Shown here piece after piece: positions 1 through 13,450 of a DNA stretch of 54,481 nt. The translations under genes and the position numbers were made by a program. This stretch comes from an uncultured Chlorobiaceae bacterium (lineage in GTDB: Bacteria > Bacteroidota > Chlorobiia > Chlorobiales > Chlorobiaceae): assembly GCA_903908555.1 (NCBI GenBank), contig CAIVSG010000137.1, positions 1 to 54,481 of the forward strand, in the 5' to 3' direction. The first letter of the stretch is position 1; each line of letters begins with the position of its first letter. The notes under the pieces were generated by a model. The model was not told the DNA's origin. It was given only the letters and a program-made list of their open reading frames with translations, and did not search any database.

Positions 1-140
1 ATCCCGTCGACCAGGGGAACCAGTTGCTCATATACTGCCCCGTGCAGAACCTTGGAGCCATCCTCTGAAAGAAGGAGAACTCCCTCGCCGGGAATCGTCA
101 CAGGATGGAGATACGCCTTGAAAATTGGAATATGGAGCAT
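1..140 (-). CDS. TOMM leader-binding / cyclodehydratase-like protein, N-terminus only
   Basis: The minus strand from an ATG at 140 is open to the window edge (46 codons), so the gene is partial and its 3' end lies outside. The start MLHIPIFKAY is followed by PGEGVLLLSEDG and VLHGAVYEQLVPLVDG. That pattern is typical of the N-terminal peptide-clamp (leader-recognition) domain of bacteriocin/TOMM cyclodehydratases, whose family role is to bind a precursor leader and help install azoline heterocycles on Cys/Ser/Thr. It sits downstream of, and codirectional with, the Nif11 precursor at 323-604. No strong ribosome-binding site is visible before the ATG. The family call rests on the N-terminal pattern alone; the YcaO or ThiF-like part is not in view. 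Confidence 0.65.
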   Translation of the reverse strand, partial: MLHIPIFKAYLHPVTIPGEGVLLLSEDGSKVLHGAVYEQLVPLVDG

Positions 141-322
141 TGGGCAGAGAGTGTGTTACCGTTGAGGGTGTGTGTAACAGTATGCAACGGCTCAAAGAAC
201 GGGCTTGCCTGATTTTATGAGCACTCAGGTGGTGCAAAGGAAAAGGGGAAACGATAAAGCTGTAACGCCGCTGTATCCCGATTCTGCAGACTCATCCAAA
301 ATACCCGAAGGTGTGCACTCTG
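141..322. other. Spacer between precursor gene and cyclodehydratase-like gene
   Basis: No gene is seen. In the minus direction the first 40 bases after the precursor stop contain CACACCTTCGGGTA. It resembles sequence in the spacer around 3555-3585, so part of this spacer belongs to the repeated flank shared by the precursor cassettes. Confidence 0.4.
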
Positions 323-604
323 TCAAATGGCACATGTAACCAGGTTAAGTGGCAGACATGCTGGATCGTGGGTATAAGAATTCACTGGAAAGAAATCTTT
401 ATACGCGCCTCCCGCCGCCTTATCAAGTTCGTCATCGCTTAGCTCTCCAGCTAACTCTTTAATCTCCACCTCGCTGCAGTCAAACCCCTCGTTTTTAATG
501 AGAACAAAGCGCTCCGCAACATCTTCGATAGCCATTATGCGATTGCGAAATGCCTCGTCCGATTTCATCTTCTCGATGAATGCTCTTGCCTGGTCTAATG
601 ACAT
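323..604 (-). CDS. Nif11-type RiPP precursor peptide 1 (93 aa)
   Basis: This is a Nif11-like leader peptide gene. The start was set at the ATG at 604, where the shared leader MSLDQARAFIEKMKSDEAF begins; an upstream in-frame ATG lacks homology to the other copies. The leader (about 66 residues) contains the helical AIEDVAERF segment, the FDCSE segment, and ends in the double-glycine site KAAGG. The predicted core after GG is 27 residues, the longest in this window, with two Cys plus Ser, Thr and Pro residues suitable for modification. It lies between the metallopeptidase-like gene and the cyclodehydratase-like gene, so it is the best candidate substrate of that enzyme. A promoter-like element is at 668-697. 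The product and its activity are unknown. Confidence 0.9.
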   Translation of the reverse strand: MSLDQARAFIEKMKSDEAFRNRIMAIEDVAERFVLIKNEGFDCSEVEIKELAGELSDDELDKAAGGAYKDFFPVNSYTHDPACLPLNLVTCAI

Positions 605-667
605 GACTATCTCCTTGGCTTGGGGGTTAAAAAATGAACCTTGATAAGAAATGAATATATCGTTCGT

Positions 668-697
668 AAGATACCCGGCTATGTGTTGAACTTGCAA
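668..697 (-). promoter_or_regulatory. Candidate sigma-70-like promoter of precursor 1
   Basis: On the minus strand TTGCAA (692-697) and TATCTT (668-673) are 18 bases apart, 64 bases upstream of the precursor ATG. The same TTGCAAGTTCAACA block recurs upstream of precursors 2 and 4 at a comparable distance. That conservation is the main evidence; transcription is not shown. Confidence 0.5.
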
Positions 698-735
698 AAT
701 GTCGATTGCACACTGGGTTATCCCGCATAACCAGC

Positions 736-1908
736 TCAATCGGAATGGGATAGTGGTTGTTCTTTCACTGAAAACTTTTGCAGAGCATCAGGACGGGAAA
801 GCTCATCAAGCGTCATCAGAGAGAGTTGAAGCAAGAACCGCATTCTACTCCAACCATCATCACCTGACACACCATCCAATCGATAGATCTTTTCGAGATT
901 TGCCGCAGCATCCGCCACAATGCGGGTGAGAATCAGAAACGCGCCATCGGAAAGAGGCGGATTACCTCTGTAATTTTCCATCCGTCCGCCGGAGGGATAT
1001 TCAGGAGAAGGTGCAATCCCCATAAATGTCAGGAACCTCGCTCCGCTGTATTCGCCAAATGCTGCCATAAGACCCATATAATCAGCAAGTAACTCATCAA
1101 AAAGGTTGTTCTGCATTGAACCCAGTAACCTCAGAGTCATATAATGGGTGCACTCATGCTCCAGACGGATAATCAGTGATTTCTCCTGCCACTCCATTTC
1201 AGTTAGCCCCATGGCTGAAGCGTTCACGCCACTATAGGGGCCGTCGCTCAAAACGATCAGACGGTCACGATAGCGTTCATGATGTTCCTTGAAATCGATA
1301 AACTCCAGATTCCAGTCGCATTCAGGATGCTGCTCAAGCCACCTGGTTTTATAACGGTTAATTCTGTCCCAGTTGTTGTATCCCTTAATCATACAAGCCC
1401 CCATGGAATCGGGTACCACTTTAGGTTCATTCCGGTACGACAAAGCCTGTACGACACACACAAAATCGCTCCGATCAGGAATAACAAGCACGGGAATCCG
1501 GCCTGCTGCCGTCGGGTGCAGAAAGAGTTCTATCCGGTCAGGCTGATGAAGTATATTTCCGGTAGCAGTCTCAAAGCCCTTTGCATCCTCACCTTTGAGT
1601 GTGACAGCACGATATGCTTCGGTTTGACTGATCCCATCATTGACAGGAAATGAGAGCTGAACAAGCTTTTGCTGAAGCATTTGGTATACCCCCCCATATT
1701 CTGCTTCGCGAATATATCCATCCCAGACTGCCGCAAATGGTTCATCTACAAGAGGCAACTCAATACTTGGAGGCAACAGAGAATGATCGAACCTGTTTGC
1801 AGTATAGCGAAGCAATTCCTCCACTTCTGGCTCGTTTGCTCCGAGTTCAAGGAGATAGTGTTCTCTTTGTGTCTGCTCGTCCATGGGATGCAATTCTATA
1901 TAAGGCAC
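736..1908 (-). CDS. HExxH metallopeptidase-like protein of the RiPP locus (390 aa)
   Basis: I do not recognise a named family. Residues 251-255 read HECTH, a HExxH zinc-binding pattern in a hydrophobic helix (SLIIRLEHECTHYMTLRLLG), followed 17 residues later by Glu272 in FDELLADYMGL, which could supply the third ligand as in gluzincin-type proteases. There is no signal peptide, so it probably acts in the cytoplasm. It is codirectional with the precursors on either side (2095-2358 upstream, 323-604 downstream), which suggests a role in peptide maturation or immunity. The start is GTG at 1908 after a GAGAG stretch; an ATG at 1884 is an alternative. A decayed copy of its 5' end lies at 2696-2782. 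Protease activity is inferred from the motif only. Confidence 0.75.
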   Translation of the reverse strand: MPYIELHPMDEQTQREHYLLELGANEPEVEELLRYTANRFDHSLLPPSIELPLVDEPFAAVWDGYIREAEYGGVYQMLQQKLVQLSFPVNDGISQTEAYRAVTLKGEDAKGFETATGNILHQPDRIELFLHPTAAGRIPVLVIPDRSDFVCVVQALSYRNEPKVVPDSMGACMIKGYNNWDRINRYKTRWLEQHPECDWNLEFIDFKEHHERYRDRLIVLSDGPYSGVNASAMGLTEMEWQEKSLIIRLEHECTHYMTLRLLGSMQNNLFDELLADYMGLMAAFGEYSGARFLTFMGIAPSPEYPSGGRMENYRGNPPLSDGAFLILTRIVADAAANLEKIYRLDGVSGDDGWSRMRFLLQLSLMTLDELSRPDALQKFSVKEQPLSHSD

Positions 1909-2094: not shown

Positions 2095-2358
2095 TTAAGA
2101 ACAAAACATAGTCTGATACTGCCCTTTACTAGTATAGACTAAGCTAATAGTAGCTCCTCCCCCTCCAGCAGCCGAATCGAGCTCCGCATCGGATAACTCG
2201 CTTTGTACCTCTTTCACCTCGGTTTCGGTAAACTGAAATCCTGCGCTGCTGGCCGCAGCAAGCCGGGCATCAACATCTTCAATTGCCAAAATGCGATCTC
2301 TGAACGCTTCGTCCGACTTCATTTTCTCGACGAACGCCCTTGCTTGATCTAATGACAT
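2095..2358 (-). CDS. Nif11-type RiPP precursor peptide 2 (87 aa)
   Basis: Starts MSLDQARAFVEKMKSDEAF at an ATG preceded by a purine-rich GGGAGAACTCC stretch. The leader belongs to a second subtype shared only with precursor 6: it has DARLAAASSAGFQFTE and VKEVQSELSD in place of the FDCSE type, so it lacks the leader cysteine. The leader ends SAAGGGG, so the cut could fall after either glycine pair. The core is 17-19 residues, rich in Ser/Thr/Tyr/Gln with a single Cys next to the last residue. It has its own promoter (2421-2449) and an operator-like palindrome (2395-2415). The 3' flank contains the conserved cassette element (about 2003-2070). Confidence 0.9.
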   Translation of the reverse strand: MSLDQARAFVEKMKSDEAFRDRILAIEDVDARLAAASSAGFQFTETEVKEVQSELSDAELDSAAGGGGATISLVYTSKGQYQTMFCS

Positions 2359-2612: not shown

Positions 2613-2695
2613 GTGCGGGCATATTCTTCATCACCCGATCAGTACCTTCTGCTATCAACCACATAAATACTCACGCAATTAGCCATACCTTCTGT

Positions 2696-2782
2696 CAAAA
2701 GAGAGTTATCGAACCTGTTTGCATTATAGCGAAGCAACTCCTCTGCTTCACGATCGTTGGCTCCGAGTTCAAGGAGATAGTG
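2696..2782 (-). pseudogene. Remnant of a second metallopeptidase-like gene (5' part)
   Basis: Twenty-nine codons on the minus strand read HYLLELGANDREAEELLR and on to FDNSLL. They are nearly identical to residues 17-45 of the intact metallopeptidase-like protein at 736-1908 (HYLLELGANEPEVEELLR...). There is no start codon in place and the rest of the gene is absent. It is a decayed duplicate. Confidence 0.8.
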
Positions 2783-2862
2783 TTTTATTGTTTATTGAAA
2801 ATAGGTAACTTATAAGCGCTTATTTCCCAGCATTAGCCAAACCCCTATCCAAGGAGATTATC

Positions 2863-3102
2863 ATGTCACTTGATCAAGCAAGAGCGTTCGTCGAGAAAAT
2901 GAAGTCTGACGTTGCTTTTAAAGAGCGCGTTTTGGCAATTGAAGATGTTGACGCTCGTCTGTCGTGCATCCAGAGCGAAGGGTTTGACTGCAGCGAATCA
3001 GAGATTAAAGAGGTTGCAGGAGAGTTGAACGATGAGGAGTTGGATTTGGCGGTTGGGGGCGTGGTAAAACATATATTTTGGGGTATGTCCTATCAGTGTT
3101 GA
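2863..3102 (+). CDS. Nif11-type RiPP precursor peptide 3 (79 aa)
   Basis: This is the only precursor of the left cluster on the plus strand. The ATG at 2863 has a clear AAGGAG (2851-2856). The leader MSLDQARAFVEKMKSDVAF resembles that of precursor 7 (SDVAFKERV), the other plus-strand copy. It carries FDCSE and ends DLAVGG; the usual AAGG is changed to AVGG. The core is only 13 residues, hydrophobic and aromatic, ending in Cys. The stop codon overlaps the first base pairs of the very stable stem-loop at 3101-3158, its probable terminator. Confidence 0.9.
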   Translation: MSLDQARAFVEKMKSDVAFKERVLAIEDVDARLSCIQSEGFDCSESEIKEVAGELNDEELDLAVGGVVKHIFWGMSYQC

Positions 3103-3158
3103 GAGACGCCACCTTCGGTTAACCCCGGAAGAGGGGTTGACCGAAGGTGGCGTCTCTC
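3101..3158. terminator. Stem-loop with 26-bp arms between convergent precursors 3 and 4
   Basis: Arms 3101-3126 and 3133-3158 are complementary over 26 positions with one G-T pair and a six-base loop GGAAGA. It lies between the stop of precursor 3 (plus) and the stop of precursor 4 (minus), so it could end both transcripts. There is no clear T-run on either side, so it could instead protect mRNA 3' ends. Its inner part (ACCGAAGGTG) recurs at about 3561-3571. Confidence 0.6.
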
Positions 3159-3173
3159 ACGCGCAACAACAAA

Positions 3174-3419
3174 CTAACAAAAAATAAACCACATAAAATC
3201 ACCGGCATTCCTATCAATCCCTCCGCCCGCAGCGGCATCAAGTTCCTCGTCGCTCACAACACCAGAAATCTCCTTAATCTCCTCTTCGCTGCAGTCGAAC
3301 CCTTCGCTTTTAATGCTATTAAAGCGCTCTGCAACATCTTCGATAGCCATAACACGATTACGAAATTCCTCATCTGATTTCATCTTTTCTATGAACGCTC
3401 TGGCCTGGTCTAATGACAT
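3174..3419 (-). CDS. Nif11-type RiPP precursor peptide 4 (81 aa)
   Basis: The start was chosen at the ATG at 3419 (MSLDQARAFIEKMKSDEEF), in line with the other copies; an upstream in-frame ATG exists. The leader has AIEDVAERF, the FDCSE segment and ends DAAAGG. The 15-residue core is hydrophobic, with Trp and Phe, and ends in its only Cys, so it offers little for heterocyclisation; ring formation with a terminal Cys is conceivable but unproven. A promoter-like element is at 3479-3507. Confidence 0.9.
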   Translation of the reverse strand: MSLDQARAFIEKMKSDEEFRNRVMAIEDVAERFNSIKSEGFDCSEEEIKEISGVVSDEELDAAAGGGIDRNAGDFMWFIFC

Positions 3420-3478: not shown

Positions 3479-3507
3479 AAGTTAGATGCTATTTGTTGAA
3501 CTCGCAA
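3479..3507 (-). promoter_or_regulatory. Candidate promoter of precursor 4
   Basis: On the minus strand TTGCGA (3502-3507) and TAACTT (3479-3484) are 17 bases apart, followed by the conserved ACGAGCGATAAATTCATG stretch also seen before precursor 6. Confidence 0.5.
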
Positions 3508-3579
3508 AATGTGACAAAGGCGGCTTCACCAAATACTTGGTTTATGTCCGGAAACATCTGACCGAAGGTGTGGATTCTT

Positions 3580-3831
3580 TCAGCAGGCTTGAAAATGTCG
3601 CCCACAAAAAGAATTAAAAAAATAGCAATTCAAGCCTCCCGCCGCCTCATCCAGCTCCTCGGTGCTTAGCTCTCCTGCTACCTCTTTAATCTCCTCTTCG
3701 CTGCAGTCGAACCCTTCGCTTTTAATGATATTAAATCGTTCTGCAACATCTTCGATAGCCATAACCCGATTGCGAAATGTCTCGTCCGACTTCATCTTCT
3801 CGATGAACGTTCTTGCTTGATCTAATGACAT
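3580..3831 (-). CDS. Nif11-type RiPP precursor peptide 5 (83 aa)
   Basis: Start at the ATG at 3831 (MSLDQARTFIEKMKSDETF). The leader carries FDCSE and ends DEAAGG. The 17-residue core has three Cys (positions 3, 10 and 17), the most in the set, plus aromatic residues and one Ser, so it is the best candidate here for multiple thioether or disulfide links. The upstream region keeps the TTAACCCCCAATCCAAAGAG leader sequence but lacks the TTGCAA promoter block. It may depend on read-through from precursor 6. Confidence 0.9.
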   Translation of the reverse strand: MSLDQARTFIEKMKSDETFRNRVMAIEDVAERFNIIKSEGFDCSEEEIKEVAGELSTEELDEAAGGLNCYFFNSFCGRHFQAC

Positions 3832-4061: not shown

Positions 4062-4313
4062 CTAATGAAAACCTCTCGGAATATTTATAATTCCACCATA
4101 CGCCTCACAGATGTAGCCGCCGGCTGCCGCGTCAAGCTCATCGTCCGATAACTCGCTTTGTACCTCTTTCACCTCTGCATCGGTAAACTGAAATCCTGCG
4201 TCGCTGGCTGCAGCAAGCCGGGTATCAAAATCTTCCATTGCTAAAATGCGATTCCTGAATGCCTCATCTGATTTCATCTTTTCGATGAACGCTCTTGCTT
4301 GATCGAATGACAT
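4062..4313 (-). CDS. Nif11-type RiPP precursor peptide 6 (83 aa)
   Basis: Starts MSFDQARAFIEKMKSDEAF at 4313. The leader is of the second subtype (DTRLAAASDAGFQFTD, VKEVQSELSD), like precursor 2, and ends DAAAGG. The 17-residue core has one Cys at position 3, a Gly pair, two Ile-rich stretches and ends in Arg-Gly-Phe-His. It is the most upstream minus-strand precursor; its promoter block (4376-4403) is degenerate. Confidence 0.9.
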   Translation of the reverse strand: MSFDQARAFIEKMKSDEAFRNRILAMEDFDTRLAAASDAGFQFTDAEVKEVQSELSDDELDAAAGGYICEAYGGIINIPRGFH

Positions 4314-4775: not shown

Positions 4776-5897
4776 TTGGCTCTTGAGTTCAGAAAAGAAG
4801 CGCTTAAAAAGCTCAGCTCTCCGGATGACCTTGACCGGTTGATGCCGGTCACCGATGCGCGCGGCTGGATTGCCTTGTTTGCAGGAGGGATCCTGCTTCT
4901 GGCAGTTATTATTTGGGGCTTTTTTGGAAAAATACCCGTCACGATCCCGGGTGACGGAATTACCATGGTGACGGGTTCCATCGATGCTATTTATATACGG
5001 ACAAATGGTGTCCTACGGCGTTTTCACCTGAAGGGCGGTGATGTGGTTCAAAAGGGTGAGTTGCTTGGTGTTATCGAGCAACCGGAATTGCATCAGGCGG
5101 TTGAGAATGCGCGTTCTGAGCGTTCATTTATTCAACAGCATCATAACGAACGAGAGGCTTTTCTTCAAAAGACAGTTCTGTCGCTAAGCGAAAGGGTTGA
5201 GCGACTTAACGCTTTATTCAAGGAGGGGCTTGTTGAAAAGGCTCTTGTCACCAGCGCCGGCCAGGATTTGATGAATGCAAAAAACGAGCTTTACAGTACT
5301 ACTGAAAAAAAAGCTGCTGCTGACCGTAACTATAGTGCTCTTCAGTATAATTATCAGTGGCAGACTGATCTTGTAGCTCCTTATACAGGAAAAGTTGCAG
5401 AAGTTCATTATAACAACGGCGATTTTGTTACAACAAGTAAATATCTGCTGCTTCTGGAGCAACTTGAGCCAAATGGGAAGTCTTCTGAGGGACTGTTCTT
5501 CTACATGTATGTTTCAGCAGAAAATGCAAAGAATGCAAAGAGAGGAATGAAGGTGTATGTATCTCCTTCAACAGTTGTCCCTGAAGAGCACGGACATATT
5601 ATTGGTGATGTGATTGCTGTAAGTGATTATCCTGCAACTGCAGAGTCGATTGAAAATGATATCAATGAATCAATTGCCCGAAAATATTCATCAGGTCCTC
5701 CCGTTTACAAGGTTATTGTCAAGCTTCGACGTGATCCATTATCGTATAGCGGATACAGTTGGACTTCAGGAAAAGGCCCTCATGTAACGATTACCTCCGG
5801 CACCCTTTGTACAGGACGGATTACTGTTGAGGAACAGCGCCCTGTTGATCTTGTCATTCCTGTTTTCAAAAAATATGTACTTGGTGAGGCCCGCTGA
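4776..5897 (+). CDS. HlyD-type adaptor of the NHLP bacteriocin export system (373 aa)
   Basis: The start is a TTG at 4776, supported by AAGGAG at 4763-4768. The protein has a short cytoplasmic N-terminus, one membrane segment (about residues 32-52) and a periplasmic part. That part has a split lipoyl/biotinyl-like domain (GGDVVQKGELLGVIE and LVAPYTGKVAEVHYNNGD) flanking a helical hairpin, as in membrane-fusion proteins. In this family it bridges the inner-membrane ABC transporter and the outer-membrane channel. It is the first gene of a tightly packed operon (one base to the next start). Subfamily assignment to NHLP (Nif11/nitrile-hydratase leader peptide) export comes from the neighbours. 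Confidence 0.85.
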   Translation: MALEFRKEALKKLSSPDDLDRLMPVTDARGWIALFAGGILLLAVIIWGFFGKIPVTIPGDGITMVTGSIDAIYIRTNGVLRRFHLKGGDVVQKGELLGVIEQPELHQAVENARSERSFIQQHHNEREAFLQKTVLSLSERVERLNALFKEGLVEKALVTSAGQDLMNAKNELYSTTEKKAAADRNYSALQYNYQWQTDLVAPYTGKVAEVHYNNGDFVTTSKYLLLLEQLEPNGKSSEGLFFYMYVSAENAKNAKRGMKVYVSPSTVVPEEHGHIIGDVIAVSDYPATAESIENDINESIARKYSSGPPVYKVIVKLRRDPLSYSGYSWTSGKGPHVTITSGTLCTGRITVEEQRPVDLVIPVFKKYVLGEAR

Positions 5898-5898
5898 C

Positions 5899-7458
5899 AT
5901 GCCCGCCCCGTATGGTCAGACTCGACCAATATCACACCATGAGTCTCGCTGGAAAGGGAAACTGCTGCTTGTGGTTGGCATGTCCATCATGTTCTTGTTG
6001 CCGGTTTCTTTATTTGCATCGGTTTCTCTGCTTGACATGGTGAGAACAGCTCTTGACCGTTCACCGGGGCTTCTGCTGGAGAGACAGAGTTTGCGAAGTT
6101 CAGAGAGCAACATGCTTGCGGCTCGATCGGCATTTGATTCACAACTATCACTCTCTTCGAGCTACAGCCAAGCGGACTCTACGGCATCAGGCATTGAACT
6201 TAAAACGGTTGCATCGAAATTATCTTCAAGCACTCTTCTTCCTTTTGGCTTGATTATTGCACCTGCTATATCTGTTCAGGGATATACATCACCTGGATTT
6301 TCTACCCTCAATACTGCTTCAGCAGGTGTTTCATTTACGTTACCTCTTTTGCAAGGTCTTGGTAACAACTCCTACAATATGGCGTTGAAGGCATCACGAA
6401 AGAGTTATCAGGCGGAAGGTTTTGCGTTGCAGCATATAGCTTCAACGAGCATTTATTCTGCTGCCAGTGCTTACTGGAATTACGTTTATGCCTACCAGAC
6501 CTTGAAGCGTGACCAACAACTCACTTATAATGCAAAAGAGAGTTGCCGGGCCACAAAAGCTCTTGCTGGAGCCGGAGAGGTTGCCTCTGTCAGGGTGGTT
6601 CAGGCTGAGGCTTATTTGCAGCAATTAGAAGCTACTGAGATCGGCGATGCCCAAGGGCTTCGACAGGCGTGGAGTGATTTATTTGCTACTGTTGGTTGTT
6701 CTACAAAAGGAAGGGAAGAACCGGAAGAGCCTTTAGACTCATTTCCAGTTCCTGATAGAAATTTAATATTGCCTGGTGATCTCTCAAAACTTAAAGCCAA
6801 AGCACTTTCCAGCCGTGCTGATCTGCAGGCGCTTCGTCTGCAGAGCGATGCGGCAAATGACCTCCTGGCAGGCAGCCGTAACGGCCTGAAGCCTAAAATT
6901 GATCTTTTGCTGTATGCTGGATACAATGGCATGCATAACGGTTCATTGATTACTGATTATTTCAGCTCTCTCTTCAGTCAGGTTCCAGGTGTCAATGCGT
7001 CAGCCACACTCTCTTATACGTTCTCCTATGGAAACCATAGTAACAAGTCTACTTTTATCCGTAACAGTGCTCAGTATGAAACTGCAATAATCAACAGAGA
7101 GGTACTTGAACGCAGCATTGACGAAGGGGTGGGTGTTGCTACAGAATCTGTTAAAAATATCTCAGCAATATTGTTGCTTAGTATGAAAAGTGCAGAGACA
7201 TACCGCTTCCTCAATGCAGCTGAACTCAAGAAATTCAAAGAGGGAATGTCAGACCTTTTCAAAGTGCAGAGTGTCAGCACTGATTTGGGCAATGCTGAAA
7301 AGCAGCTTCTTGCAGCCCAAAAAGCCTATGCATTGGCAGTGCTCACCTATCGCTATCAAATTGCAGAAATCATGCATGAGCACAATGGTCTCTATAGCGT
7401 TGAAGAGCGTGACCTGGTCAGTATTCCAGCACTTGATAATACCATCAATAAGCAATGA
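5899..7458 (+). CDS. TolC-family outer-membrane channel (519 aa)
   Basis: The start chosen is the ATG at 5899, one base after the adaptor stop, although the frame is open from 5827. Residues about 18-42 form a signal-like segment (KGKLLLVVGMSIMFLLPVSL). The rest shows two similar helical repeats with QAEAYLQQLEA and a second LGNAEKQLLAAQKAYALAVL segment, typical of outer-membrane efflux proteins. It should form the exit duct for the exported peptides. Its stop overlaps the next start as ATGA. Confidence 0.8.
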   Translation: MPAPYGQTRPISHHESRWKGKLLLVVGMSIMFLLPVSLFASVSLLDMVRTALDRSPGLLLERQSLRSSESNMLAARSAFDSQLSLSSSYSQADSTASGIELKTVASKLSSSTLLPFGLIIAPAISVQGYTSPGFSTLNTASAGVSFTLPLLQGLGNNSYNMALKASRKSYQAEGFALQHIASTSIYSAASAYWNYVYAYQTLKRDQQLTYNAKESCRATKALAGAGEVASVRVVQAEAYLQQLEATEIGDAQGLRQAWSDLFATVGCSTKGREEPEEPLDSFPVPDRNLILPGDLSKLKAKALSSRADLQALRLQSDAANDLLAGSRNGLKPKIDLLLYAGYNGMHNGSLITDYFSSLFSQVPGVNASATLSYTFSYGNHSNKSTFIRNSAQYETAIINREVLERSIDEGVGVATESVKNISAILLLSMKSAETYRFLNAAELKKFKEGMSDLFKVQSVSTDLGNAEKQLLAAQKAYALAVLTYRYQIAEIMHEHNGLYSVEERDLVSIPALDNTINKQ

Positions 7459-9644
7459 GATCGCAAGCTGAAAAACTGCCATGGAAAGAGGTGAGGGTAA
7501 AAACCCCGACGGTGCTGCAGATGGAAGCAGTGGAGTGCGGAGCAGCTTCGCTTGCTATGATTTTAGCTTATTACGGCAGGTTTGAACCTCTTGAAAAGCT
7601 TCGCGAGGCATGTGGGGTTTCGCGTGATGGCAGCAAGGCGAGCAATCTGATTAAAGCGGCACGTACCTACGGATTTGAGGCAAAAGGCTTTCAGATTGAG
7701 CCTGAGGGGATTAATGGGAAGCGTCTGCCAATGATCCTCTTCTGGAACCTTTATCACTTTGTGGTGCTGGAGGGATATAAAAACGGCATGTATTATATCA
7801 ATGATCCTGGTTCCGGCCCTCGAAAGGTGACCGCAGAGGAGTTTAGTGATTCATTTTCCGGTGTGGCGCTGACTTTTTTACCTACTGCTGACTTTAAAAA
7901 AGGAGGGAAGCCCTTCAGTCTTTTTGATGGACTAAAAAAGCGGTTGCCAGGCCTTGAGACAGCACTGGTTTATATTGTACTGGTCAGTCTGTTATTGGTG
8001 ATACCCGGTCTTGTAGTGCCTTCGTTTCTACGAATATTTATTGATTACGTTCTCGTTAAGGGAATGAGCGGCTGGCTGCAGCCTCTGCTTATCGGCATGC
8101 TGCTGACAGCGCTTTTGCAGGCTGGCCTTACCGGGCTGCAACGCCAATGTCTCCTTAAGGCTGAAACAAAACTCGCCCTGACCTCATCAGCCAGGTTTTT
8201 CAACCATGTTTTTGCGTTACCGATCAGGTTTTTCACCATGCGCCAGGCTGGGGAGATTTCCAACCGTGTACAGCTGAACGATAAGGTGGCTACCATTGTG
8301 GCCGGTGATTTGTCGTCAAACACGCTCAATATCCTGTTGATATGCTTTTATGCTTTATTGATGTTCCGTTACGATGTGCTTCTGACCTTTGTGGCAATTT
8401 TTATCGCTGCTCTTAACGGTATAGCTCTCTCTTATGTATCGAGCAGGCGTATTGTGTTGAACCAGAAGTTTCAGCAGGATAACGGCAAGCTGCTTGGCAC
8501 CACTTTTTACGGGATCAAGACGATTGAAAGCATCAAGGCTACCGGGTCGGAGCAAGACTTCTTTTCGCGTTGGTCCGGGCTTTTTGCCAACATGGTTGCG
8601 GGCCGCCAGACGCTTGAGGTGTCGACGGTTTTCCTGCTTGCTATTCCGCCTTTTCTGCAGACAGCTGGCAATATTGCGATTTTGTCGGTGGGGGGAATGA
8701 GGGTGATGGAGGGAGAACTGACCATGGGTATGCTGGTTGCCTTCCAGAGTCTTTTACTCTCTTTTCTTGCGCCGGTTAACCAGATGGTGACGCTTGGCCA
8801 AAAATTGCAGGAAGCGGAGGGGGATATGCAGCGCCTTGATGATGTGATGAATAATGAAGCATCTCTTGGCGGTGATGACAATGAAAGCCTTTCCGATGCC
8901 GCTGAGAATGGTTACACAGAGAAACTTTCCGGTTTTGTTGAGCTGAAGAACGTAACATTTGGTTACAACGTCCTTGAGCCTCCCCTGATCACTGACTTTT
9001 CGCTTAAGCTTGTTCCCGGTGCAAGGGTGGCATTGGTGGGTGGTTCTGGGTCAGGTAAATCGACCATTGCAAAACTTGTGGCTGGTCTTTATGATCCATG
9101 GAGTGGTGAGGTTCTTTTTGACGGTAAATCGCGGAGTGAGATTCCTCGAAGGTTGCTGGTCAACTCGATTGGAATGGTTGACCAGGAGATCACGCTTTTT
9201 GAGGGCACTATTGCTGAAAATATTGCCATGTGGGACAGCACCCTGCCTCAGGAGGAGATTGCCCGGGCAGCCGAAGATGCTGCCATCAACGCGGTAATTA
9301 ATGCGAGAACAGGAGGGTATCAGGGGGTGCTTGGTGAAGGGGGCAATAACTTTAGCGGCGGGCAGAGACAGAGGATGGAGATTGCCCGTGCTCTTGCCAC
9401 TGATCCTTCTATTCTTATTCTTGATGAAGCGACCAGCGCGCTTGATCCGGCGACGGAAATGGTTATCGATGGAAATATTCGACGCAGAGGATGCACCTCA
9501 CTTATTGTAGCGCACCGTCTCAGTACCATTCGGGACTGTGATGAAATTATTGTGCTTGAATATGGGCAGGTCAAAGAGCGGGGAACACACAGTGTACTGA
9601 TGGCCAAAGAGGGCGTTTATGCCGGCCTGATCAAAACAGGATAG
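7455..9644 (+). CDS. NHLP peptidase-containing ABC transporter (C39 peptidase, 729 aa)
   Basis: Cuts the leader after GG and exports the core peptide. Domains in order: C39 papain-like peptidase (residues about 15-150) with Cys28 in MEAVECGAASLAM, His101 in NLYHFVVLEG and Asp117 in INDPGSG; a six-helix ABC membrane domain (about 165-460); an ATPase domain with Walker A GGSGSGKST, signature FSGGQRQRMEIARAL, Walker B ILILDEATSALD and switch AHRLST. All key residues are present. It overlaps the TolC-type gene by four bases. The family is the NHLM/NHLP ABC transporter 1, matched to the GG-ending Nif11 leaders in this window. Confidence 0.92.
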   Translation: MRSQAEKLPWKEVRVKTPTVLQMEAVECGAASLAMILAYYGRFEPLEKLREACGVSRDGSKASNLIKAARTYGFEAKGFQIEPEGINGKRLPMILFWNLYHFVVLEGYKNGMYYINDPGSGPRKVTAEEFSDSFSGVALTFLPTADFKKGGKPFSLFDGLKKRLPGLETALVYIVLVSLLLVIPGLVVPSFLRIFIDYVLVKGMSGWLQPLLIGMLLTALLQAGLTGLQRQCLLKAETKLALTSSARFFNHVFALPIRFFTMRQAGEISNRVQLNDKVATIVAGDLSSNTLNILLICFYALLMFRYDVLLTFVAIFIAALNGIALSYVSSRRIVLNQKFQQDNGKLLGTTFYGIKTIESIKATGSEQDFFSRWSGLFANMVAGRQTLEVSTVFLLAIPPFLQTAGNIAILSVGGMRVMEGELTMGMLVAFQSLLLSFLAPVNQMVTLGQKLQEAEGDMQRLDDVMNNEASLGGDDNESLSDAAENGYTEKLSGFVELKNVTFGYNVLEPPLITDFSLKLVPGARVALVGGSGSGKSTIAKLVAGLYDPWSGEVLFDGKSRSEIPRRLLVNSIGMVDQEITLFEGTIAENIAMWDSTLPQEEIARAAEDAAINAVINARTGGYQGVLGEGGNNFSGGQRQRMEIARALATDPSILILDEATSALDPATEMVIDGNIRRRGCTSLIVAHRLSTIRDCDEIIVLEYGQVKERGTHSVLMAKEGVYAGLIKTG

Positions 9645-11913: not shown

Positions 11914-13053
11914 ATGTCATATTTCGGAGATATCTATGAACGTGCGATCCTGCCGGTGTCTCTCCAGCTTATATCGTTGGAGAGCAGGCGAAGGATAAGA
12001 ACTATCATTGATGTTTTGCCTAAAGAGTACGGGTTGATGACATTCGGGTTTGAGTGTCCGCTTCATGAGGCATCTGCAGATGCAGATTTCCTGGTTTCAT
12101 CCGATGTCACTAATGATGGTCCTTCCATTATGATGCATGCATCTGCTGCCGGTAGTGAGTTCCCTGACTCAGTATTTGAAAAGGTTCGTGAATTTGGTTC
12201 CTACTGGAAGGGGGTTTTGTCAAATAAGCAAAGTGACCCAGCGCCTTTGATTGATGATGTCTGGCTTGAATATGATTTGATAGCTCATCCAGAGAGTTTC
12301 CCCGTTCCAGGCATTTTTTTCAGGACCGCCAGTAATATCGAGAAAGATGGCGATGCCCTGCATCTGGACGTGATTGTTGATTTTTTATGCCGGACATATT
12401 TTGATGTGAAAAAAACTTATCCATCCACGCTGTTGCGGCGACAACTTGAAGCGTGTGTTGTATCTGAAGGTGATAATAAAAATGTAAAAAAAAGCATCTA
12501 TATCGGTATGATGCTGTCAAGAAAGTCATCAGGATTGCGACTGGTTGTTGGCTTTGCGTCATCTGAAGCGCTGTTGTCGTTTTTGAGGGATTCAGGTTGG
12601 CCTGGTCCATTAACTTTTATCAAGCCTTTTGTTGATGAGTGGTATCAAATGGTTGATATGGTCACTCTCAATGTGGATATTGGTGAAGATGGTTTGGGGA
12701 TTAAACTTGGTTTTGAGCTTTCTTTTAACTGCCGTCGTCCCCCTGAACGTGAGCCTCGCTGGGCTTTGCTTTTGGATTATCTGGTTGAAAAAGGGATGTG
12801 CTGTCCATCTAAAGTGCAGGGACTGATAACGTATGCCGGCTATGAGGAGTACCCCGGTATGCAGGGGATTATGGCTGAATCATCCGATATGGAACTTCTC
12901 AAAGATGCGTGCAGAATGTTTGTTGTGCGGAAACTTTTTCATATCAAGGTAGTCTATGATGGCACACCTTCGCTTTTTGCAAAGGGTTACCTTGGTGTGA
13001 CACCGTATTTTCGCAGGTGGGATATTTTTAAAGAGGCCACGTCACTACCTTGA
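11914..13053 (+). CDS. Unidentified protein at the end of the export operon (379 aa)
   Basis: I do not recognise this protein. It begins MSYFGDIYERAILPVSLQL, has no signal peptide or membrane segment, and is of mixed helix/strand composition. Notable stretches are DDVWLEYDLIAHPESFPVPG, AKGYLGVTPYFRRW near the C-terminus and several aromatic clusters. It starts 18 bases after the second ABC gene and is codirectional, so it belongs to the export operon and could be a maturation enzyme, an immunity protein or a chaperone for the precursors. No catalytic motif stands out. Codon use and length are consistent with a real, intact gene. Confidence 0.75.
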   Translation: MSYFGDIYERAILPVSLQLISLESRRRIRTIIDVLPKEYGLMTFGFECPLHEASADADFLVSSDVTNDGPSIMMHASAAGSEFPDSVFEKVREFGSYWKGVLSNKQSDPAPLIDDVWLEYDLIAHPESFPVPGIFFRTASNIEKDGDALHLDVIVDFLCRTYFDVKKTYPSTLLRRQLEACVVSEGDNKNVKKSIYIGMMLSRKSSGLRLVVGFASSEALLSFLRDSGWPGPLTFIKPFVDEWYQMVDMVTLNVDIGEDGLGIKLGFELSFNCRRPPEREPRWALLLDYLVEKGMCCPSKVQGLITYAGYEEYPGMQGIMAESSDMELLKDACRMFVVRKLFHIKVVYDGTPSLFAKGYLGVTPYFRRWDIFKEATSLP

Positions 13054-13216: not shown

Positions 13217-13450
13217 ATGTCACTTGATCAAGCAAGAGCGTTCATTGAGAAGATGAAGTCGGACGTTGCTTTTAAAGAGCGTGTTATGGCTATTGAAGAT
13301 GTTGCAGAGCGCTTTAAGCTCATTAAAAGTGACGGGTTTGATTGTAGCGAGGAGGAGATTAAAGAGGTAGCAGAAGAGCTAAGCGACGAGGAGCTGGATG
13401 AGGCCGCGGGGGGGCGATATTGCTTTGGGGATTGCATGCTTGTAGGGTGA
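13217..13450 (+). CDS. Nif11-type RiPP precursor peptide 7 (77 aa)
   Basis: The ATG at 13217 follows AAGGAGG. The leader MSLDQARAFIEKMKSDVAF carries AIEDVAERF, FDCSE and ends DEAAGG. The core is just 11 residues, with Cys at positions 3 and 7 and a C-terminal Leu-Val-Gly; it is the shortest of the set. It lies 163 bases downstream of the export operon on the same strand. The 5' leader (CATTTCTTAACCCAATCCAA) matches those of the minus-strand precursors, so it derives from the same cassette. A stem-loop follows at 13478-13502. Confidence 0.9.
   Translation: MSLDQARAFIEKMKSDVAFKERVMAIEDVAERFKLIKSDGFDCSEEEIKEVAEELSDEELDEAAGGRYCFGDCMLVG

Follow-up and report, generated by a model that had tools for sequence, protein, structure and literature searches.

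A predicted NHLP/Nif11-type azole-peptide cluster split over two contigs of a Chlorobiaceae genome, and an exporter-linked DUF7005 protein

The window analysed here, a stretch of 54,481 nucleotides, is the complete contig C137 of a Chlorobiaceae MAG (81% complete, 3.3% contamination) and begins at contig base 1; paralogs beyond the assembled part of this MAG are possible. Three minus-strand ORFs had been recognised between positions 1 and 1908 in the initial annotation, and all three were found to be present and real. The genes and features at this end of the contig are the following:

3-140, minus strand: predicted 5' 46 codons (TOMM leader-binding protein) of a gene fusing RRE, cyclodehydratase and YcaO; 46/46 aa align with L041:10017-10154 at 87% identity
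323-604, minus strand: Nif11-type RiPP precursor 1, start ATG 604; TIGR03798, E = 3e-21
605-705, minus strand: upstream module of precursor 1 (CATTTTGCAAGTTCAACA ... AAGGAGA), a candidate promoter/leader region of its own; alignment of 10 upstream regions
736-1884, minus strand: DUF7005 protein with an HExxH-X16-E-x3-D motif (HECTH), putative zincin-type metalloprotein; PF22541, E = 3.4e-138
2095-2358, minus strand: Nif11 precursor 2, core with 7 Ser/Thr/Cys; TIGR03798, E = 1.9e-21
2684-2785, minus strand: decayed second DUF7005 copy without an intact ORF, 71% identical over residues 16-49; tblastn
2863-3102, plus strand: Nif11 precursor 3; TIGR03798, E = 3e-18
3174-3419, minus strand: Nif11 precursor 4; TIGR03798 match
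3580-3831, minus strand: Nif11 precursor 5, core with 3 Cys; TIGR03798, E = 8e-21
4062-4313, minus strand: Nif11 precursor 6; TIGR03798 match
4776-5897, plus strand: NHLM HlyD-type secretion protein; TIGR03794, E = 2e-80
5827-7458, plus strand: TolC-like outer membrane protein; PF02321, E = 4.6e-27
7455-9644, plus strand: NHLM peptidase/permease/ATPase (ABC1), with leader cleavage behind GG expected; TIGR03796, 1067 bits
9670-11895, plus strand: NHLM permease/ATPase (ABC2); TIGR03797, E = 9e-279
11914-13053, plus strand: unnamed 379-aa protein (hyp379); orthologs 56-59% identical next to DUF7005 in Chlorobiaceae relatives
13217-13450, plus strand: Nif11 precursor 7; TIGR03798 match

The cyclodehydratase gene at the contig ends

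The 46-codon ORF at positions 3-140 ends at the contig boundary and matched the start of a relative's 748-aa gene with E = 2e-23. This N-terminal stub is present as a single copy in the genome, and the genome contains one YcaO gene, located at the right end of contig C113. Two ORFs of that contig are:

L010:13877-15889, minus strand: predicted remaining 670 codons of the cyclodehydratase-YcaO gene, a 5'-open ORF at the right end of C113
L010:12736-13869: TIGR00027 methyltransferase, next to the cyclodehydratase

Intact genes joining both halves were found in the relatives G052 (contig C20, 748 aa) and G025 (749 aa). Nucleotides 1-140 of the G052 gene align with window positions 140-1 at 88% identity and nucleotides 236-700 with C113 positions 15891-15424 at 84% identity, both alignments stopping exactly at the contig ends (window base 1 and C113 base 15891) and leaving 95 nt between them unassembled. 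No overlap was found between the end sequences of C137 and C113, and the 95-nt gap has no coverage in the sequences of this genome, the join of the two contigs resting on the relatives. Because the relative's gene matches both ORFs up to the contig ends and each of them is single-copy, we conclude from these alignments that the stub and the C113 ORF are one RRE-cyclodehydratase-YcaO fusion gene of about 750 aa, split over two contigs. That they would be two different genes on contigs that are not neighbours, as the lack of overlap and the fragmented and incomplete state of the MAG might suggest, has a very low probability in view of single-copy halves that each fit one relative gene exactly to their own contig end, in register and with 95 nt left.

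Profile searches with the C113 part gave matches above the cut-off for TIGR03604 (SagD family; E = 1.6e-97, 326.8 bits versus a cut-off of 219.25), for YcaO PF02624 (E = 8.8e-96, 321.5 bits versus 25.7) and for TIGR03882, the cyclodehydratase/leader-binding C domain (E = 1.3e-41, 142.5 bits versus 36.9). Among solved structures, LynD was nearest to this part (E = 4e-164), and TruD and MusD were also matched. The N-terminus of the relative's gene aligned with that of LynD at E = 3e-15, a region which in LynD constitutes the RRE (PMC12455567). Submitted alone, the 46-aa stub yielded nothing above the cut-off in NCBIfam and Pfam, as the TIGR03882 model starts only after the RRE region, and its only match in the PDB was to MusD at E = 1.5. 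Taken together, sequence comparison places the RRE start of the cyclodehydratase in the window. The truncated edge ORF, read as a TOMM leader-binding protein in the initial annotation, was thus correctly recognised from sequence as the front of such a gene; the YcaO gene predicted to lie left of position 1 was located on C113, and the TOMM cyclodehydratase model search proposed there returned TIGR03882 for the C113 part.

A nitroreductase-type dehydrogenase, likewise predicted for the left side, was identified on C113 as a SagB-family gene with ThcOx domains (TIGR03605, E = 7e-56, 188 bits versus a cut-off of 78.4). This contig further carries an NHLP precursor, a Nif11 precursor and a radical-SAM/SPASM enzyme, and the order and strand of cyclodehydratase, methyltransferase and dehydrogenase are conserved in G052 and G025. 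The N-terminus of the TIGR00027 methyltransferase resembles the RRE region of the cyclodehydratase with an hhalign probability of 95.5%, obtained from very shallow profiles; it is possibly a leader-guided methyltransferase. All genetic hallmarks of a TOMM cluster were present, namely YcaO (D), the cyclodehydratase C domain and the optional FMN dehydrogenase (B), as were those of an NHLP/Nif11 system, that is, Nif11 leaders with GG and a variable core, and the NHLM trio TIGR03794/03796/03797 above cut-off. We conclude that the left window edge is part of an NHLP/Nif11-type azole-peptide (TOMM) cluster, as predicted from its genes.

The Nif11 precursors as candidate substrates

Precursor 1 scored 75.4 bits against TIGR03798 (cut-off 32.3) and consists of a 66-aa leader ending in AAGG and the core AYKDFFPVNSYTHDPACLPLNLVTCAI. 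With 27 aa, this core is the longest among the 11 Nif11 cores checked, as had been proposed; that it would also be the most modifiable did not hold, since it contains 5 Ser/Thr/Cys (2 Cys, 1 Ser, 2 Thr) versus 7 in precursor 2, and 2 Cys versus 3 in precursor 5. Cys is present in every precursor core of the window. Genome-wide, 16 Nif11 and 2 NHLP matches were above cut-off. Two more Nif11 precursors on contig C14 (L011:6927-8060) adjoin a truncated radical-SAM ORF.

The alignment of upstream regions revealed that the module preceding precursor 1 also precedes several other, scattered Nif11 precursors. Its motif TTGTTGAACTTGCAAAATG was found at positions 683-701, 2435-2453 and 3493-3511, each about 80-100 nt upstream of a precursor start (precursors 1, 2 and 4; 3 matches versus 0.06 expected). 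Because the module is common to scattered precursors, it suggests separate expression and a cassette-like duplication of precursor genes. A promoter/terminator scan gave sites no more frequent than in shuffled sequences. Between the convergent precursors 3 and 4, an inverted repeat at 3100-3159 (27 nt, 96% complementary, 6-nt loop) looks like a shared two-way terminator. Of the "operon-like" trio of DUF7005, precursor 1 and cyclodehydratase, the common orientation stood, and the single unit was not supported, in view of gaps of about 130 and 180 nt and of the upstream module shared with the scattered precursors.

The leader of precursor 1 shares 82-83% identity with the leaders of precursors 4, 5 and 7, and an enzyme reading this leader would therefore be expected to accept these precursors, too. 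In both G052 and G025, the precursor next to the cyclodehydratase is a divergent NHLP. A counterexample is Nostoc sp. C057, whose cyclodehydratase has a Nif11 precursor directly upstream on the same strand. Precursor 1 as a dedicated azole substrate was rejected on the grounds of the leader shared with precursors 4, 5 and 7 and of the pairing of the enzyme with NHLP in the relatives. The earlier expectation that precursor 1 would gain azol(in)es "unlike the other cores" was not supported for the same reasons, with Cys occurring in all cores. We regard precursor 1 as a plausible, not a privileged, substrate among many.

Comparison of the leaders revealed two groups. The "FDCSE" group comprises precursors 1, 3, 4, 5 and 7 together with the C14 pair, the "FQFTE/FEFTE" group precursors 2 and 6 together with those on C113 and C221. 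Within a group, most leaders are 79-86% identical to each other, compared with 59-73% across the groups, which might indicate two leader subclasses feeding two enzymes, YcaO and radical-SAM, with precursor 1 possibly being a thioether-type (radical-SAM) substrate. The presence of a radical-SAM/SPASM enzyme in the cluster would agree with such a division, as would the "FQFTE/FEFTE"-type Nif11 precursor beside the dehydrogenase on C113 and the "FDCSE"-type C14 precursors at their truncated radical-SAM ORF. It is nevertheless an unlikely explanation, given that precursor 1, of the "FDCSE" group, adjoins the cyclodehydratase itself and that precursor 3 is intermediate (70-79%).

DUF7005 and the NHLM exporter

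The HECTH protein of the window is a full-length member of the Pfam family DUF7005 (PF22541). Relatives align with it from residue 9 onwards, which makes ATG 1884 a likelier start than the alternative GTG 1908. H243, E244, H247, D263, E264 and D268 are invariant in 15 aligned homologs. In the AlphaFold2 model, which is of good confidence (pLDDT 86), HECTH lies on a helix spanning residues 229-254 and the downstream D/E on a helix spanning residues 261-276. An HExxH motif and a downstream D/E on two successive helices are the usual zincin arrangement, and we infer a putative peptidase activity from the motif and the modelled helix placement only. A fold search against solved structures gave no match below E = 1, with M1 aminopeptidases recurring among the weak matches; the sequence had no match in the PDB and none in NCBIfam at E ≤ 1, and a search of the available literature found no described function for DUF7005. 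The remnant at 2684-2785 suggests, from its sequence, duplication of the gene followed by decay.

To place the protein in its genomic context, 21 DUF7005 loci from Chlorobiota, Firmicutes, Cyanobacteria and Bacteroidota were compared, and the NHLM ABC2 gene was found on the same stretch in 17 of them. As measured between alignment ends, ABC2 lies 12-61 nt upstream of DUF7005 in eight loci; in seven the distance, again upstream, is about 1 kb, and in the two cyanobacterial loci ABC2 is downstream. A close relative of the cyclodehydratase was present in one of the 21 loci, that of Nostoc sp. C057, and weak YcaO matches in one more (L024), the modifying enzymes near DUF7005 varying between radical SAM, LanM and YcaO. 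Within Chlorobiaceae, DUF7005 occurs in 5 of 86 genomes, all of them among the 22 with TIGR03797 (hypergeometric P = 0.0008, kinship uncorrected). Co-occurrence of DUF7005 with YcaO within the exporter-bearing genomes was 2/3 and not significant (P = 0.12).

Those Chlorobiaceae relatives that carry both genes have them in the order ABC2-DUF7005, and one has hyp379 next in line; the window differs in that hyp379 comes directly after ABC2, with DUF7005 standing apart and inverted. The hyp379 protein had no match in NCBIfam and Pfam. It adjoins ABC2 or DUF7005 in Chlorobiaceae, and 21-24% identical matches were detected in four Firmicutes DUF7005 loci. An island on the Nostoc sp. C057 plasmid (L045:10647-17113) carries DUF7005, Nif11 and NHLP precursors, a radical-SAM maturase, a cyclodehydratase and a SagB dehydrogenase together.

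Because DUF7005 goes elsewhere with the NHLM exporter (17/21) and not with the cyclodehydratase (1/21), gene context indicates that the trio of DUF7005, precursor 1 and cyclodehydratase is a local arrangement. Counting the HECTH protein as a member of the trio, as the initial annotation had done, was not upheld, its relatives sitting with the NHLM exporter and usually without a cyclodehydratase nearby. Our tentative proposal, held with somewhat less than even confidence, is that DUF7005 may be an unrecognised, widely conserved HExxH part of the NHLM export module, acting on Nif11/NHLP precursors irrespective of whether YcaO, radical SAM or LanM modifies them, for instance as a second cytosolic leader peptidase or in the clearance of peptides that fail to be exported.

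In NHLP-type clusters, HExxH enzymes can also be alpha-ketoglutarate-dependent hydroxylases (PMC12636437), and DUF7005 might correspondingly be an HExxH-type peptide-modifying oxygenase, as in other RiPP clusters, and not a peptidase. This we consider improbable, since the missing NCBIfam match at E ≤ 1 means that kinship to the HExxH peptide-modification models there is not detectable, and since its link is to export and not to one particular modifying enzyme, which is more in keeping with a general role. Less probable still is a single operon in which DUF7005, precursor 1 and the cyclodehydratase would make an azole peptide from precursor 1 only. Shared strand and order, the longest core with its 2 Cys, 1 Ser and 2 Thr, and the Nostoc sp. 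C057 arrangement, in which the cyclodehydratase, 42% identical, directly follows the Nif11 gene and DUF7005 is found on that plasmid stretch as well, would be in line with such an operon. They are outweighed by the own upstream module of precursor 1, common to others, by its leader identity to precursors 4, 5 and 7, by the divergent NHLP neighbour in both close relatives, and by DUF7005 following the exporter elsewhere, mostly without a YcaO gene nearby.

Proposed pathway and known systems

Overall, the locus is in all likelihood a Chlorobiaceae NHLP/Nif11 TOMM cluster split over two contigs, with the 46-codon ORF as the RRE start of the fused enzyme and with pooled precursors. By analogy with characterised family members, the fused enzyme would bind a pool of Nif11/NHLP precursors by their leaders and convert Cys, perhaps also Ser/Thr, of the cores into azolines, some of which the SagB/ThcOx dehydrogenase would oxidise to azoles; the NHLM peptidase-transporter would then cut after GG and export the peptide. 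As the least certain step, which we put forward with reservation, DUF7005 could belong to the export/precursor module as a zincin-like metallopeptidase of the cytosol, trimming or clearing precursors whichever enzyme modifies them. The link between DUF7005 and the NHLM exporter across four phyla leads to a hypothesis on what this Pfam family of unknown function may do, and the newest point of this analysis is DUF7005 as a so far undescribed HExxH protein linked to the exporter. Furthermore, the many near-identical leaders and the two kinds of maturase constitute a natural test of how a single leader family is shared between enzymes.

In Chlorobium luteolum, a fused cyclodehydratase accompanied by NHLP and Nif11 precursors was described by Haft, Basu and Mitchell in 2010 (PMC2887384), and NHLP/Nif11 was listed by Cox et al. 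as a TOMM group related to the cyanobactins (PMC4603692). The present cluster is a further case of this already described kind and provides a second example, here split between contigs, of a hybrid Nif11/NHLP azole-peptide cluster of the C. luteolum type. It shares with G025, which is probably C. luteolum DSM 273, the fused cyclodehydratase-YcaO (71% identity), the methyltransferase and SagB dehydrogenase in the same order, and NHLP and Nif11 precursors with an NHLM exporter nearby. In contrast to G025, where a divergent NHLP is the immediate neighbour of the cyclodehydratase and DUF7005 is absent, a same-strand Nif11 precursor occupies this position here and DUF7005 is present; a radical-SAM maturase in the cluster is a further difference from C. 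luteolum.

With the cyanobactin cyclodehydratases LynD and TruD (PDB 4v1t, 4bs9), the enzyme has the fused RRE-to-YcaO architecture in common. Unlike in those systems, the predicted substrates are Nif11/NHLP precursors with GG leaders served by an ABC-peptidase exporter, and no PatA/PatG-type protease was seen next to the cyclodehydratase. The combination of an RRE-bearing YcaO enzyme with many structured-leader precursors of one family is reminiscent of MprC and the MprE NHLP precursors (PMC12455567), with the difference that Nif11 leaders dominate here (16 Nif11 versus 2 NHLP).
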